A stretch of DNA of 64,000 nt, from positions 210,117 through 274,116 of the forward strand of contig JAIQGK010000004.1 of the NCBI GenBank assembly GCA_020072645.1. Reading direction: 5' to 3'. Shown here one piece after another: positions 54,394-63,651 of the stretch. Source of the stretch: Terriglobia bacterium. GTDB taxonomy: Bacteria; Acidobacteriota; Terriglobia; Terriglobales; Acidobacteriaceae. How positions within the stretch are numbered: the stretch's first letter is position 1; every line of letters begins with the position of its first letter. Below the pieces are notes generated by a model that saw only the letters and a list, made by a program, of their open reading frames with translations, did no database searches and had not been told where the DNA came from. Both the position numbers and the translations under genes were made by a program.

Positions 54394-54912
54394 ATGCCGG
54401 TCTCTCTCGCCAACTCCGGAGTGGTTTACGACGCGCTGAAGAAATGCGGCATCGGCCTTGTCTCTGCTCTGCCTGAGACGTGGCTGGTGCACCTGATTCG
54501 CATGGCTGAAGACGATCCCAAAATGATCCTGGTACGTCTTGCCAAGGAAGAAGAAGGCGTGGGAATTTCCGCGGGCGCACACTTTGCGGGCGTGAAGTCC
54601 GCCATGCTGATGCAGAACCACGGCTTCCTTGCCAGCATTAACGGAATTGTTTCTTTCGCGCAGCTCTACCGCATTCCGTTGCTGATGCTCATCAGCTATC
54701 GCGGCCACTTTGGCGAGCGCGATCCCTGGCAGACGCAGGGCGGCGGTGTGACGGAGCCTCTGCTGCGTGCATTGGGCATTCCATATTCATTTTTAGATGA
54801 TCCCGCAAAAGTAGAAAAGCGCATTGCTGAAGCCCAGACTTGGGCCTATGCCAGTTTGCATCCCGCTGCGTTGCTGCTCACGCGTGAACTCATGTGGGAG
54901 GAGCCCGCATGA
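54394..54912 (+). CDS. comD: sulfopyruvate decarboxylase-type alpha subunit
   Basis: 172 residues. This is the PYR-domain half of a split TPP enzyme, as in sulfopyruvate decarboxylase ComD or phosphonopyruvate decarboxylase. It has the helix VVYDALKKCGIGLVSALPE, the catalytic Glu region RLAKEEEGVGISAGAHFAG and QNHGFLASINGIVSFAQLYR. Its stop overlaps the ATG of the partner gene (ATGA), so the subunits are co-translated. The substrate is not certain: no phosphonate or coenzyme M genes are present in the window, and a cyclase-family hydrolase follows. Confidence 0.85.
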   Translation: MPVSLANSGVVYDALKKCGIGLVSALPETWLVHLIRMAEDDPKMILVRLAKEEEGVGISAGAHFAGVKSAMLMQNHGFLASINGIVSFAQLYRIPLLMLISYRGHFGERDPWQTQGGGVTEPLLRALGIPYSFLDDPAKVEKRIAEAQTWAYASLHPAALLLTRELMWEEPA

Positions 54913-55511
54913 TGCAGCGCCTTGAATGCCTGCGCGCGATCTATGACCAACTGGAAAACTGTTTGGTTGTTACCATCATGGGCGCTGTCGCATGTGAGCT
55001 GCAGTCGCTGGGTCACAAGCCGAACTTTTTCTACCTGCAACATGCCATGGGACTTGGATCGTCCACCGGCTTGGGCCTTGCGCTCTGTCTTCCTCAACAG
55101 AAAGTCGTGGTCTTTGATGGCGATGGCTCCATCCTGATGAACCTTGGCGGATACACGACGCTGGCGCGTTATCGCCCCAGGAATCTGGTGCATGTTGTTT
55201 TTGACAATGAGAGCCTGCTCTCTGTCGGCGGCTTTCCCACCGCTACTTCTACCGGCAGCGACCTTGAAGGCGTGGCTCGCGCATCCGGCATCGCGCGCAC
55301 CAAGACCGTTAGCACAATCGAAGAGTTCAAGCATGCTTTTGACGAAGCGTTAAGAACCAATGATCTTACTTCCATGGTGGCAAAAGTCGAGGCGGTGGGG
55401 CCAAAAGGATACGTGACGGAATTGGCGTTGCTGGAAAACCGGTTTCAGTTCAAGCGGTATATCGAGAAGCTCACCACGGAGGCACGGAGACACGGAGAAA
55501 GCAAAAGCTAA
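54909..55511 (+). CDS. comE: sulfopyruvate decarboxylase-type beta subunit
   Basis: 200 residues. This is the TPP-binding PP-domain half: CLRAIYDQLENCLVVTIMGA, LQHAMGLGSSTGLGLALCLP, and the TPP/Mg motif VFDGDGSILMNLGGYTTLAR. The start is ATG 54909, with GGAGG 6 nt upstream and a 4-bp overlap with the alpha gene. The last ~12 residues (TTEARRHGESKS) are encoded by the left arm of the inverted repeat at 55472-55611, so the natural C-terminus has been extended or replaced by repeat DNA. Forms the active enzyme with the alpha subunit. Confidence 0.86.
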   Translation: MMQRLECLRAIYDQLENCLVVTIMGAVACELQSLGHKPNFFYLQHAMGLGSSTGLGLALCLPQQKVVVFDGDGSILMNLGGYTTLARYRPRNLVHVVFDNESLLSVGGFPTATSTGSDLEGVARASGIARTKTVSTIEEFKHAFDEALRTNDLTSMVAKVEAVGPKGYVTELALLENRFQFKRYIEKLTTEARRHGESKS

Positions 55512-56596: not shown

Positions 56597-59500
56597 CTAC
56601 AGCGTCGCCCTCTTCACCACAGCAGCCAGCGCGCGATTGCGTTCGAATTCGCCCTGGATGGAGTTCGCAGCTTTGATGTAGCTTTCGCGCAAGGCACCAT
56701 CCAATGAATAGGAGTGCGCCACCGTTGAGAGTACACGCGCCTTCTCATAGTCAGACGTGATACGGCCGACTGCATTGAGGACTTTGCCAACTGAATCGTT
56801 GTTCAGCTTGTTGTGTTCCATCAGCGCGATCAGGCAGCGCGAGCGCTCATAATCGCTCGACATGGAGTCCGTTACGCCAAGATAGATATTCATCTGGCTT
56901 TCATCAAATTTGTTGGCCTTGAGCAGCGTGGTGAGCACACGCGACTTCTCATAGTCATTTCCGGCTTTTGCCATGTTCTGCATGGCTTTAGTCATGGACG
57001 CGCTGCTCAAGCTGTTGTTCTGCATCAATTCCAGCAGGCTGCGCGAACGCTCATAGTCAGATTTCATGGAATCGACCACTTTCAGGTAGTTCGCCATTTG
57101 CGCTTCATCAAATTTGCCCTGTTTCGCCAGCCCCAGCAGCAGGCGTGACTTCTCATAGTCAGAGCCAATACTGGTAGTTGCGTCCATGATTCGGTTGGTC
57201 TGGTCCGCAGTCAATTTGTATTTCTGCATTGGAGCCAGAAGGTCGCGCGATTTTTCATAGTCGGAATGAATAGACGATACGAGCTTCAGGTAGAAATCGA
57301 GCTGCGATTGATCAAAGGCCTTCTGGTCGAGCAGCGACAGCAGAATGCGCGACTTTTCGTAATCACTCTTGATGCTGCCGGCTGAGTTCAGCGCCATGCT
57401 GACGTTTTCCTTCGAAATGTTGGGCCGGTGCAGTAGTTCAATCAACACACGTGAATGCTCATAGTCACTCTTGAGGTGGTTGGCCGCGGTAAGGAAGGCC
57501 GTGCGTGAAGCTTCGTCAGGCAGGTCATATTGCTTGCTCACCGTCATCAAAACGCGGGCCATTTCGTAATCCGAACTGATCTGTTCGCCAGCCTGCTTGA
57601 TCACGCGCTGCACCACCGGTGAAGGCAGCTTGGGTTGCTCCAGAAGCTTGCGGAAGTAGATGCCACGAACGTAGTCAGATTGCAGATTGCTGATTTCGTC
57701 CAGCACAGCGTTTGGCCCGCCCTTGGCCAGCAGTGCGGGGACGCGCGCATCGGCGGCAAAGCCGGTGCTGCGTTCCAATGCCAGAAGGAATTGTGCGAAC
57801 CAGGTCTTGGCTTCACCTTCAAACGGTTGCTGCTTGCCATTGACCTTGTAAACATATTGCAGGCCATTGGCGGATGGCGTGACTTTTACCTGCTTCAGCG
57901 TGTCATCCTGGCGCAGATTTACTTCAAACAGGCCGCCGGGAGAAATGCTCTGAATGTCTGTGGCTTCCGCATTGAATTTCACTTCGCCTTCAGCGTGAAG
58001 ATCAAGACTGCAGTTGCCGCCGGACCAATTGGCTGTCCAATGCTTATAGCCGTTGTTAGACTCCATGCTCATGTTGTGGAGCTTGGCGCGCGTTCCGCAA
58101 ACACTGATATCTCCGCCCGGAACTGCAGGCACGGCTGGTACGGCTGGCACTGCCGGAACACCGGGGACTGCGGGAACAGCAGGTGCAGGGGCCGCCGGTG
58201 CACTACCGCTTTGGTACGCAGGCAATGCAGGCGGCTCCGGTGCTTCAGGAGCTTCGGCGGCCTCGGGCGCTTCAGGGGCCTCAGGAGCTTCAGGAGCCTC
58301 GGCTATTTCAGCTGGTTCAGCGGGCTCGGAATCGCTGCCAAAAGAAGGCCTGGCTTCCGGCGCTTGTGATCCGTTGCCCGGCGTGGCTGCGGAGGGATAG
58401 TTCGCTCGGGGTGCGCTGGCTGGAGTCGTGGCAGGACTCGGCTTGGCTTTGCCATTCTTGGCGGAAGGCGTAGTGCTTTGCGATGCAGGCCGCATGGCCG
58501 AAAGAGGCAATACAATGCAAAGCGTCAATATACCCAGAGCTAGAGCGGCCCTGCGGGAAACTGATCCACGCGGCAAAGCCGGATTGAGAACCGCTAGAAC
58601 GCGCCCTTCCAATTGTGATTTGCGTGCCATGGCCAGCGCCGCTGCCAGTTCAGGTTCGCGCAATCCGGAAACAATATCCAGCAACTCATGTGCGTAGTCT
58701 GAGGCTTTGGTCCCCGCCGCGAGCACATGATCGTCACAGGCGCGTTCGCGCTCCGCGCGCATCGCGCGCACCATGAGCCACACCAGTGGATGGAACCAAT
58801 ACAACGATGCTGCCAGATTCGCCAGCGCCTGCGTGAATGCGTCCAGCCGTTTGATGTGCGCCAGTTCGTGGTTGAGAATGGCGGAGCGCCGCGTCGGAGA
58901 CCACTCCGGGTAATCGAGCGAGAGCACGATGCGTGGGAACAGGATACCCGTGGTTATCGGCACTTCAATTTCGCCGCTTACCAGCAAAGCAACGTGGCGA
59001 TCAATTCTCAGTTCAGCGCAAACCGCGCGTACCTGCGCGTTCCAGCCTGAATCAGTAAGCACCGCAGCGCGACGTACCAGAGCTGCCAGACGCATGGCGT
59101 TCAAACGCCAACGTGCCAGGAAAAACAAGGCACCGGCGATCCACAGGCCAAGGAGCAGCCTGGGCAGAAAAGAGGGGATAGACTCTGTTATGGATGTGGC
59201 GGGCCGAGTTTTCTCAAATGAACCTGTACTCGCGGATGTCGGGAAATTGGAAACGGCCATCGTGTCGGCAGAGGCGGTTCGTTTTGGCTGGTGTCCTGCA
59301 CGGTGAGACTCAGGGTTGACTCGCGAACGGACAGCCGCAGTAGGCGAAGGTGTCGATGCGAGTGGCTCTGCAACCGCTGCCGGAGCATTGTGTTCCGTCA
59401 TCGGTGAAGTCGGGATAACGGGCTGCTGGCCAGAGAGATTTTGCGTCGAAGGCCGTCTGTTGGGATATTGAGGCAGCCCCTTTATATGCCATGTGGGCAC

Positions 59501-59677
59501 CACCATCACGGAGAAGGGAAGCAGTAGCAGAGCGGCCAGCGCAAACGTCCGCACCATGTGCTGCGTCGCGGCAGAGCGTTTTTTCAGGATCAGTGCCGCG
59601 CACCAGGCAATCGCCAGCAGGAGCGTTGACTTCACCACTGTATCCAAAATGATTGCGGATGATGAAAGAGAGTGCAT
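56597..59677 (-). CDS. BlaR1-like M56 metallopeptidase with SDYE repeats
   Basis: 1026 residues. The N-terminal ~400 residues are a BlaR1/MecR1-type M56 peptidase with four membrane helices and the zinc motif H270-E-L-A-H274 in NHELAHIKRLDAF, with the third ligand region RAERERACDDHVL. A Pro/Ala/Glu-rich linker follows (about 430-545: repeated EAPEAPEA and VPAVPA). Then comes a beta-type domain, and about 370 C-terminal residues made of about eleven ~36-residue units. Each unit has the phrase SDYE-K/R-SR-x-L-x-x-L (for example SSDYEMARVL, KSDYEKSRILLSLL, SSDYERSRCLIALM). BlaR1 proteins have about 600 residues, and the penicillin-binding sensor domain is absent here. GGAGGG upstream. It overlaps nothing but lies 2 bp after blaI, so the two form a sensor-repressor operon. 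Confidence 0.9.
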   Translation of the reverse strand: MHSLSSSAIILDTVVKSTLLLAIAWCAALILKKRSAATQHMVRTFALAALLLLPFSVMVVPTWHIKGLPQYPNRRPSTQNLSGQQPVIPTSPMTEHNAPAAVAEPLASTPSPTAAVRSRVNPESHRAGHQPKRTASADTMAVSNFPTSASTGSFEKTRPATSITESIPSFLPRLLLGLWIAGALFFLARWRLNAMRLAALVRRAAVLTDSGWNAQVRAVCAELRIDRHVALLVSGEIEVPITTGILFPRIVLSLDYPEWSPTRRSAILNHELAHIKRLDAFTQALANLAASLYWFHPLVWLMVRAMRAERERACDDHVLAAGTKASDYAHELLDIVSGLREPELAAALAMARKSQLEGRVLAVLNPALPRGSVSRRAALALGILTLCIVLPLSAMRPASQSTTPSAKNGKAKPSPATTPASAPRANYPSAATPGNGSQAPEARPSFGSDSEPAEPAEIAEAPEAPEAPEAPEAAEAPEAPEPPALPAYQSGSAPAAPAPAVPAVPGVPAVPAVPAVPAVPGGDISVCGTRAKLHNMSMESNNGYKHWTANWSGGNCSLDLHAEGEVKFNAEATDIQSISPGGLFEVNLRQDDTLKQVKVTPSANGLQYVYKVNGKQQPFEGEAKTWFAQFLLALERSTGFAADARVPALLAKGGPNAVLDEISNLQSDYVRGIYFRKLLEQPKLPSPVVQRVIKQAGEQISSDYEMARVLMTVSKQYDLPDEASRTAFLTAANHLKSDYEHSRVLIELLHRPNISKENVSMALNSAGSIKSDYEKSRILLSLLDQKAFDQSQLDFYLKLVSSIHSDYEKSRDLLAPMQKYKLTADQTNRIMDATTSIGSDYEKSRLLLGLAKQGKFDEAQMANYLKVVDSMKSDYERSRSLLELMQNNSLSSASMTKAMQNMAKAGNDYEKSRVLTTLLKANKFDESQMNIYLGVTDSMSSDYERSRCLIALMEHNKLNNDSVGKVLNAVGRITSDYEKARVLSTVAHSYSLDGALRESYIKAANSIQGEFERNRALAAVVKRATL

Positions 59678-59679
59678 GC

Positions 59680-60069
59680 TTATCGTCCCTCCTGCTGCGC
59701 CTTTTTGATTAACTGAGAAAGGTATTGTTTGTCCTTGGTGGAAAGCGTGCTGTCAGACATTTCCAGCAGCGCGGCCACGGCCTGCTCAGGAGAGCCGCCA
59801 AAAAATGTTTTCACCATGTGCTTCAGAGCGTTGGCGCGGACCTGGCGCGTATCGTCGGCGGGCAGGTAGACATACTTCAGTCCTTCCTGCTCATGCCGCA
59901 GGTATCCTTTATCTTCCAGCAGGCCCAGCATGCCGCGCACGGCGGAATAGCTGGGTGGATCCGTCAGGTCGGCCAGGACTTCAGTCACTGATGCGCGACC
60001 CCGCCGGTAGATCACGTCCATAATCTGGCGTTCGCGCCGCCCAAGTTGAAGATGTTTCTCGTTGCTCAT
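59680..60069 (-). CDS. blaI: BlaI/MecI-type transcriptional repressor
   Basis: 129 residues. Winged helix-turn-helix repressor of the BlaI/MecI/CopY family: LGRRERQIMDVIYRRGRASV, TEVLADLTDPPSYSAVRGML and LEDKGYLRHEQEGLKYVYLP, then the dimerisation helix (FGGSPEQAVAALLEMSDSTL). Cleaved or released when the M56 partner senses its signal. Start ATG 60069 has AGGAGA 5 nt upstream. It precedes the M56 peptidase (2 bp gap). Two matching palindromes lie at 60101-60134, so it probably represses its own operon. Confidence 0.95.
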   Translation of the reverse strand: MSNEKHLQLGRRERQIMDVIYRRGRASVTEVLADLTDPPSYSAVRGMLGLLEDKGYLRHEQEGLKYVYLPADDTRQVRANALKHMVKTFFGGSPEQAVAALLEMSDSTLSTKDKQYLSQLIKKAQQEGR

Positions 60070-60100
60070 GGTTCTCCTGATTCGAATGCCGCTTCGCATG

Positions 60101-60134
60101 TGCTAGTGCACTAGCACATGCTAATACATTAGCA
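60101..60134. promoter_or_regulatory. double BlaI operator
   Basis: TGCTAGTGCACTAGCA (60101-60116) is a perfect 16-bp palindrome. TGCTAATACATTAGCA (60119-60134) repeats it with two central mismatches, with 2 bp between them. They lie 32 bp upstream of the blaI start and resemble the TACTACA-type dyads bound by BlaI/MecI dimers. Confidence 0.8.
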
Positions 60135-60270
60135 GGAGTTGTCAAGAGGCAAAACGGATATAGACGAAGTCACAAGCGCCTGGTTGTGGGACAAGATGAC
60201 CGTACTTCGGGACGACTAGCTCGAAGCAGCCGGAGAGACAAGCTGCCGATCCAGTTAAAATGAGTCCGTC

Positions 60271-62394: not shown

Positions 62395-62748
62395 ATGGAA
62401 ATTAAATTGGCATCGGCCAGTGACCAGAAGGTATCGCGCTATGCAGAGATGTTTTCCGCTATGGGCGCGGAGCCGAGGCTGCGTATCCTTCGGTTGCTGC
62501 TGGCGGCTCATCCCGGAGGGATGGTGGTAAATGAGATTGGCGAGGAATTGGAAATCGCAAACTCAACGCTTTCTCACCATCTGGATAAGTTAAAGAATGA
62601 AGACCTGGTGGAAGTGCGGCGGGAAGGGACTTTCCTGCGTTATTCGGCAAACACCAAAGCGCTGGCTGAACTGCTGGGCTTTTTGTATGCCGAGTGCTGC
62701 ACCCGCAACAAAGCAGTAGAGCCGCAGCGTATTACATGCTGCAAATAA
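62395..62748 (+). CDS. arsR: ArsR-family metalloregulator
   Basis: 117 residues. Winged-HTH repressor: EMFSAMGAEPRLRILRLLLA, HTH NEIGEELEIANSTLSHHLDK and the wing VEVRREGTFLRYS. It lacks the classical ELCVCDL arsenic site. Instead it has vicinal Cys pairs near the C-terminus, C101-C102 and C115-C116, like the Acidithiobacillus-type ArsR that binds As(III) with C-terminal cysteines. It is followed 30 bp later by arsM, and the operator at 62375-62394 implies autoregulation. Confidence 0.92.
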   Translation: MEIKLASASDQKVSRYAEMFSAMGAEPRLRILRLLLAAHPGGMVVNEIGEELEIANSTLSHHLDKLKNEDLVEVRREGTFLRYSANTKALAELLGFLYAECCTRNKAVEPQRITCCK

Positions 62749-62778
62749 TCCGTATTCATAGATTTGAGGAGAAGCAAA

Positions 62779-63651
62779 ATGAGCGCACAAGATATCAAGG
62801 AAGTCGTAAAAGAGCGCTACGGCGCGGCTGCCCGGCGCGTGACCACAGGTGAAGGAAGCTCCTGCTGCGGCGCGTCCGCACAGTGCGGCACAGACATCGA
62901 TCCCATCACGCGCGATCTGTATGACGCTTCGCAAACCGGAATTTTGCCCGAAGAGGCGGTAAAAGCTTCTCTGGGATGTGGCAATCCAACGGCGCTGGCT
63001 GAACTCAAGCCGGGCGAGACGGTGCTGGACCTAGGGTCGGGCGGCGGGATTGACGTTTTGCTTTCCGCACGCCGAGTTGGGCCAACCGGCAAAGCTTACG
63101 GCCTGGACATGACTGATGACATGCTGGCGCTGGCGCGTGAGAACCAAAAGAAATCAGGCGTTACGAACGTTGAATTCCTGCGCGGCGAAATTGAAAACAT
63201 TCCGCTGCCGGCAGATTCCGTGGATGTAATCATCTCCAACTGCGTCATCAATCTTTCTGCCGACAAGGATCGCGTGCTCAGCGAGGCCTTCCGTGTGCTT
63301 AAACCGGGTGGCCGCCTGGCGGTTTCCGACGTTGTGGTGCACGGCGACGTACCGGAGGAGATCCAGCAGAGCTTGCTGCTGTGGGTCGGCTGCATTGCCG
63401 GGGCGCTGCGTGATGAAGACTACGTGAGCAAATTGAAAGCTGTGGGCTTTGAGTGCGTCAGCATCGAACCCACGCGCGTTTACCAGATTGAAGATGCAAG
63501 AGCTTTTCTGACCGGGCAGGGAATGGACGTTGACGCAATCGCGCCGCTGGTAGAAGGCAAGTTTATGAGCGCCTTCATCCGTGCCAGCAAACCGCCGTTC
63601 GGGACGGTACTGAAACAAAGCCTGGGACTGAATGTCTTGAAGTGCTGCTAA
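62779..63651 (+). CDS. arsM: arsenite S-adenosylmethionine methyltransferase
   Basis: 290 residues. It methylates As(III) stepwise to volatile or less toxic forms. The SAM fold is clear: VLDLGSGGGIDVLLSARRVG, YGLDMTDDMLALAR. Conserved Cys are C67 in GCGNP, the Cys in SNCVINLS and the Cys in LLWVGCIAGAL, the three positions used for As(III) binding in ArsM. Extra Cys are CC at 29-30 and at the C-terminus. ATG 62779 has TTGAGGAG 8 nt upstream. Second gene of the arsR-arsM operon; no arsB or acr3 pump is seen here. Confidence 0.95.
   Translation: MSAQDIKEVVKERYGAAARRVTTGEGSSCCGASAQCGTDIDPITRDLYDASQTGILPEEAVKASLGCGNPTALAELKPGETVLDLGSGGGIDVLLSARRVGPTGKAYGLDMTDDMLALARENQKKSGVTNVEFLRGEIENIPLPADSVDVIISNCVINLSADKDRVLSEAFRVLKPGGRLAVSDVVVHGDVPEEIQQSLLLWVGCIAGALRDEDYVSKLKAVGFECVSIEPTRVYQIEDARAFLTGQGMDVDAIAPLVEGKFMSAFIRASKPPFGTVLKQSLGLNVLKCC

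Follow-up and report, generated by a model that had tools for sequence, protein, structure and literature searches.

An M56 Peptidase of Acidobacteriota with a Predicted Alpha-Solenoid in Place of the Penicillin Sensor, Encoded beside a BlaI-Family Repressor

We found that a contig of a Terriglobia bacterium, a soil acidobacterium, encodes an M56 (BlaR1-like) membrane metallopeptidase whose C-terminal part consists of a beta domain and a long array of helical repeats, next to a gene for a BlaI-family repressor and two putative operators. The best explanation is an autoregulated one-component signalling operon, akin to BlaI/BlaR1, whose sensor has been exchanged; the solenoid-bearing part of the protein would do the sensing, and we give this reading a probability of about 0.55. 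All coordinates (table 1) refer to the window, that is, the whole stretch of 64,000 nucleotides that was analysed.

Table 1. Features of the blaI-M56 locus, with their positions in the window
Feature	Position	Strand	Basis
M56 (BlaR1-like) membrane metallopeptidase with beta domain and helical repeat array	56597..59677	-	open ORF, 1,026 aa
Alpha-solenoid (predicted), residues 641-1026, 11 SDYExSR motif copies at residues 667-1015	56600..57757	-	motif positions, lag test, AlphaFold2 (AF2)
Beta domain (predicted, eight to nine strands) and following helix, residues 526-640	57758..58102	-	AF2 models, pLDDT 92 and 89
Pro/Ala/Glu-rich linker, residues 398-525	58103..58486	-	composition
TM4, residues 377-395	58493..58549	-	hydropathy
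Peptidase_M56 domain match, residues 135-362	58592..59275	-	Pfam PF05569, E=7e-37
ExxxD motif, E311-D315, third zinc ligand	58733..58747	-	alignment to BlaR1 ExxxD
HELAH zinc motif, residues 270-274	58856..58870	-	alignment to BlaR1 HEYAH
TM3, residues 170-188	59114..59170	-	Kyte-Doolittle window
TM2, residues 42-60	59498..59554	-	Kyte-Doolittle window
TM1, residues 13-31	59585..59641	-	Kyte-Doolittle window
BlaI-family repressor	59680..60099	-	PF03965, E=1.4e-24
Operator 1 (putative), TGCTAGTGCACTAGCA, perfect palindrome	60101..60116	.	dyad conservation
Operator 2 (putative), TGCTAATGTATTAGCA on the - strand, 18 bp from operator 1	60119..60134	.	dyad conservation
TTGACA -35 element	60140..60145	-	sequence; TTGAC[AT] kept in family loci

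The M56 Protein and Its Topology

The HELAH and E311xxxD315 motifs of the protein aligned with the zinc motifs of Staphylococcus aureus BlaR1 (8exs), which are known as HExxH and ExxxD (PMC9834060). The four transmembrane segments predicted from hydropathy follow the BlaR1 pattern, and a low-complexity insert of ~107 residues lies between TM2 and TM3; by analogy with BlaR1, this insert would be extracytoplasmic. Based on the homology to BlaR1 and the four predicted segments, the zinc protease would face the cytoplasm and residues 396-1026 would lie outside the inner membrane. The linker contained 30 Pro and 34 Ala among its 128 residues and AF2 modelled the beta domain with high confidence, so that both the Pro/Ala-rich linker and the beta domain claimed for this protein in a first-pass annotation, made from the letters alone, hold.

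The transpeptidase domain (PF00905) was absent from the 1,026-aa protein when searched with Pfam, even at E<=1, in agreement with the earlier claim that the penicillin-binding domain is missing. The NCBIfam model blaR1_generic scored 95.5 bits against a cut-off of 400 bits and covered the protease part alone. Because the defining sensor domain was looked for and is absent, the protein is, as judged from its sequence, a member of the M56/BlaI kind of signalling proteins and not BlaR1 proper. Other M56 proteins in the same genome (L005, G000:C15:5570-6328; L004, G000:C9:173130-173753) had short unrelated tails, and a simple motif detected no BlaI-like ORF near their genes in the stretches scanned.

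The Repeat Array

The motif copies start at residues 667, 702, 737, 771, 805, 839, 873, 907, 941, 975, and 1009, the first (SDYV) and the last (GEFERNR) being divergent. Successive copies are therefore 34 residues apart, with 35 for the first two intervals, in place of the roughly 36 given previously. The mean BLOSUM62 score was +0.82 at lag 34 and +1.21 at lag 68, far above the maximum of 1,000 shuffles (-0.14); together with the 11 copies and the PF05569 match, these scores bear out the description of the gene product as an M56 peptidase with an array of SDYExSR units. Since lag 68 scored above lag 34, the units alternate in pairs: the best pairs of same-parity units reached 55-61% identity, and adjacent ones shared about 26-41%. 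Close relatives are shorter by exactly 68 residues, which is two units. The first-pass annotation had proposed comparing array lengths, predicting the fold and searching for the repeat elsewhere; the first of these gave 7, 8, 9, 11, or 12 motif copies among the relatives, mostly two apart. Considering these copy numbers and the 68-residue differences, arrays appear to gain and lose units mainly as pairs.

AlphaFold2, run with a 12-sequence alignment, returned a model in which an antiparallel beta domain leads into paired helices (pLDDT 91.7, pTM 0.79), and the units are thus predicted to be helical hairpins that form a HEAT/ARM-like alpha-solenoid, as the hairpin shape suggested earlier would have it. 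Compared with the PDB by VIA-align, the array resembled HEAT/ARM solenoids with Z up to 15.8, at which many unrelated helical solenoids tie; for long helical repeats, such likeness probably reflects the general arrangement only. In the DSSP assignment of the model, the Ser of SDYE stands directly before helix A and the Glu is helix residue 3 in the clear units. The phrase would thereby cap helix A of every unit at its N-terminus (a classical S-x-x-E capping box), and its role is probably at least partly structural.

No credible match to a repeat family was obtained in the Pfam, NCBIfam, and PDB sequence searches, whether with the protein, a 12-member profile, or diverse arrays. HEAT/ARM profiles did not match the 1,026-aa protein (Pfam, E<=1); weak matches were limited to ARMH5 in one of 11 relatives (E=0.2) and HEAT_2 in one stand-alone module protein (E=0.059), and no Pfam TPR match was present in any array scanned. 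A known repeat family (TPR or HEAT) with a studied role in M56 proteins, which had been named as the finding that would speak against a new sensing domain, was encountered neither in these profile searches nor in the literature searched. Matches to SpoIIIAH, TIM21, GPP34, and similar families were discarded, being under the cut-off and inconsistent across relatives. DUF4476 (PF14771), considered as a possible relative, appeared in one protein of the family at a weak E=0.41, and a search of 60 genomes of the phylum gave no match to it.

BlaI, Operators, and the Extent of Control

The M56 gene starts 2 bp after blaI. The ATG at 60069 is the likelier start of blaI, because only 1 bp would separate the start of the longer ORF from an operator. 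Two tandem 16-bp dyads, the putative operators, lie upstream of blaI, and TAGCAT at 60118-60123 is a plausible -10 element that would overlap operator 2. The tandem dyads and TTGAC[AT] were kept upstream of blaI in ten distinct loci in which the surrounding DNA diverges, and a locus from another family carried TGCTAA-N4-TTAGCA twice. The BlaI partner and operators reported in the first-pass annotation are thus both present.

With one mismatch allowed, the dyads at blaI were the sole copies in the 6.4-Mb genome. When eight genomes were scanned for TGCTAR-N4-YTAGCA, the pair spaced by 18 bp occurred at the blaI promoter only, and other single matches stood at or below the level of a reversed-pattern control. 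A wider BlaI regulon was considered and rejected: the weaker single matches in this genome, with two mismatches, lie within unrelated ORFs or at their ends. Because the next downstream gene is convergent in most relatives, the operon would consist of two genes, blaI and the M56 gene. Since the operator pair occurs nowhere else in the eight genomes, this operon appears to control only itself; an effector gene turned up neither in the operon nor beside matching operators. A BlaI gene adjoined every M56-solenoid gene whose upstream flank was read.

Elsewhere in the window, a split thiamine-diphosphate decarboxylase (54394-55511, + strand), like the alpha and beta halves of sulfopyruvate/phosphonopyruvate decarboxylase and under the curated cut-offs, is followed by a cyclase/arylformamidase-like gene; the decarboxylase beta half and the cyclase also adjoin the M56 operon in L028 and L082. 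At 62395-63651 (+ strand), an ArsR-type repressor precedes an arsenite methyltransferase (PRK11873, above cut-off), which is an ordinary arsenic-methylation pair.

The Beta Domain and the Exchange of Modules

The beta domain itself spans residues 526 to about 620 and was conserved across 33 aligned segments; modelled alone from these diverse segments, it reached an AF2 pLDDT of 89.4. None of the Pfam, NCBIfam, or PDB sequence families covered it, and Foldseek with the domain alone gave no match at E<=0.001. The best VIA-align score, Z 5.3 to p32/C1QBP, was within background, a weak result that does not show a new fold. The M56 proteins L050 and L059 carry the domain twice, with the second copy at the extreme C-terminus, and the domain therefore behaves as an independent unit. 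In L054 and L057, M56 and the beta domain are followed by a different short repeat (SxRGQISS-type) and then by coiled-coil-like sequence.

A scan of genome contigs with exact peptide seeds recovered three close relatives only. The search for the module in other genomes showed that it recurs across Acidobacteriota, in which all relatives were found (named records being Acidobacteriaceae or Terriglobia metagenome assemblies). It was present in 7 of the 9 genomes of the genus and 12 of the 150 genomes of the family, and was scattered in the phylum (29 of 396 genomes at E<=1e-5, some of them matching by the beta domain alone); a plasmid collection contained no match. Three architectures were distinguished, namely M56 with beta domain and solenoid, stand-alone exported proteins with beta domain and solenoid or solenoid alone, and M56 with beta domain and something else. 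The stand-alone modules (L017, L034, L037, L040-L042, L119, L120, and others) had signal peptides, and some of them (L041, L042, L119, L120) had lipoboxes, both judged by eye. Their export supports an extracytoplasmic place of the module, and because they lack M56, the beta-solenoid module is, at the sequence level, not M56-specific. No BlaI gene lay beside the stand-alone genes whose flanks were read. The stand-alone genes at L066 8214-9509 and L067 4774-5928 adjoin large MacB/ADOP-like ABC permease genes, so named from the appearance of their sequences.

L049/L081 (571-2997 of L049, - strand) combines M56 and the same beta domain with a complete PF00905 transpeptidase (E=1.4e-46), and a BlaI gene adjoins it. 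This protein apparently links the solenoid form to classical BlaR1. Because the beta domain is common to solenoid and transpeptidase M56 proteins, the solenoid form looks like a sensor swap in which the distal sensor was exchanged.

The alternative that survives best, which we regard as possible but unlikely, is that beta domain and solenoid are an effector and not a sensor. The module would then be a periplasmic scaffold, chaperone, or envelope binder anchored via M56, the protease would sense the membrane or wall through its TM helices or the TM2-TM3 insert, and derepression would yield more solenoid. Exported modules that exist without M56 or an adjoining BlaI gene fit such a role, as does an operon that is itself the only detectable output of the switch. 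However, fusion exactly at the position of the BlaR1 sensor and the replacement by a transpeptidase in a relative form the pattern expected of a sensor. Within a sensing protein, too, it could be the membrane part or the TM2-TM3 insert, instead of the solenoid, that reads the signal.

Evolution of the Motif within and between Arrays

The motif was near-uniform inside an array and varied among arrays (SDYE, TDYE, SDFE, SDGD, SDGE, SNYD, SSSE). Across 19 arrays, the identity of units within an array at position 3 was 0.87, against 0.43 for randomly dealt units, and none of 500 shuffles reached 0.87; kinship between arrays inflates this test somewhat, the other positions serving as an internal control. 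Positions 1, 2, 4, 6, 7, and 10 were above all 500 shuffles and positions 5 and 32 above all but one. Units were recognised by a loose motif at 1, 2, and 4 and by a hydrophobic or small residue at 9, which biases these four positions but leaves 3, 5-8, 10, and 32 free of bias. Almost all remaining unit positions in the 19 arrays showed no within-array excess. At position 1, equivalent units of close relatives had a likeness of 0.35 between proteins versus 1.00 within one protein.

Recent unit duplication or gene conversion was rejected as the source of the uniform motif in the present array, considering that the unit bodies are just 26-61% identical and that Ser is encoded by both TCN and AGY. 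Asp, Tyr, and Glu are likewise each encoded by both of their codons, and such mixed codon use favours selection acting on the residues over gene conversion. These patterns point to coupled selection along the array, for which two readings remain: either adjacent rungs touch and must match, or the rungs touch a repeating ligand.

They also bear on the rather doubtful alternative that the beta domain alone senses and the array serves passively, as a spacer or dimerisation stalk whose length can vary. The varying copy number, changing mostly by two units, suits a stalk, and in other M56 proteins the beta domain precedes coiled-coil-like sequence or nothing; but the motif-face residues are uniform within arrays despite mixed codons, beyond the apparent need of a spacer, and the same kind of array is present in stand-alone proteins.

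Proposed Mechanism

In the swapped-sensor reading that we prefer, BlaI bound to two tandem operators over the promoter would keep the blaI-M56 operon low, a step strongly supported by the sequence. The beta domain and the solenoid of 34-residue repeats, held outside the inner membrane on the flexible linker, would engage a ligand outside the cytoplasm. The likeliest candidate would be an extended or periodic molecule, for example a polypeptide, a glycan, or an envelope protein. By homology, ligand engagement would activate the cytoplasmic protease, BlaI would be cleaved, and the operon would be derepressed. Because the operator pair is unique in the genome, the main output would be more receptor, either as a sensitising feedback loop or with the solenoid as a useful periplasmic product. 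Some points sit uneasily with this mechanism. The cleavage site of S. aureus BlaI (Asn101-Phe102) is not obviously retained, and it would be strange for a sensor to have no effector gene, unless its output comes from feedback or from degenerate sites that escaped the scans.

A more specific proposal, which we offer as speculation with the odds against it, is that the solenoid reads, unit by unit, an extracytoplasmic ligand that is itself repetitive. The residues that open helix A would form a ladder with one rung per unit, and the rungs would change together in evolution because they touch the same repeating ligand or one another. M56 would respond to an occupied ladder with cleavage of BlaI, and the receptor would be the sole regulated product.

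Least probable of all is a sensor still devoted to cell-wall or beta-lactam stress, in which the solenoid would bind a penicillin-binding protein or wall fragment and beta-lactams would act indirectly: wall stress is the usual role of BlaI/BlaR1 systems and the Mycobacterium tuberculosis BlaR1 homologue, also without a sensor domain, may use another protein (PMC9834060), but the operon contains no gene for a beta-lactamase, a PBP, or wall functions, and the eight genomes showed no further operator pair. The alternatives are not all mutually exclusive.

Comparison with Known Systems

BlaR1 serves as a model of how regulated proteolysis transmits signals, and it is also a target in drug resistance. 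With BlaR1/MecR1 and BlaI/MecI of S. aureus and Bacillus licheniformis, the present system shares an M56 protease with HExxH and ExxxD, four (here predicted) TM segments, a C-terminal domain that would be external, a BlaI partner, and palindromic operators. It differs in carrying a beta domain and alpha-solenoid instead of a penicillin-binding transpeptidase sensor, and no beta-lactamase or PBP target gene was found here. Self-limited control has a precedent in BlaI_1845 of Clostridium thermocellum, a single-operon regulon in which two inverted-repeat pairs precede the blaI operon and the genome has no further complete site (PMC8457756). That operon also contains two hypothetical genes, one possibly for wall synthesis (PMC8457756), whereas here it holds blaI and the M56 gene only.

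The predicted geometry of stacked helix pairs resembles that of the HEAT/ARM solenoids (for example IntS4, the PP2A scaffold, importins), although here the units are fixed at 34 residues with an S-D-Y-E cap, and the rmsd to the best matches was mostly about 5-16 A, a likeness at the level of the fold only. TPR repeats also have 34 residues and two helices per unit, but no Pfam TPR match was obtained. Our literature search returned no paper on solenoid-bearing M56 proteins, and this form appears to be undescribed in the literature searched and unmodelled in Pfam and NCBIfam. Its co-varying motif is unusual in that the units of an array change in step at a few positions and diverge elsewhere. 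This pattern may help to identify the contact face and the ligand. The natural BlaR1-like set offers chimeras for testing how a signal passes across the membrane, and the exchanged external domains, transpeptidase or solenoid on the same beta domain, show the M56/BlaI core as a general chassis.
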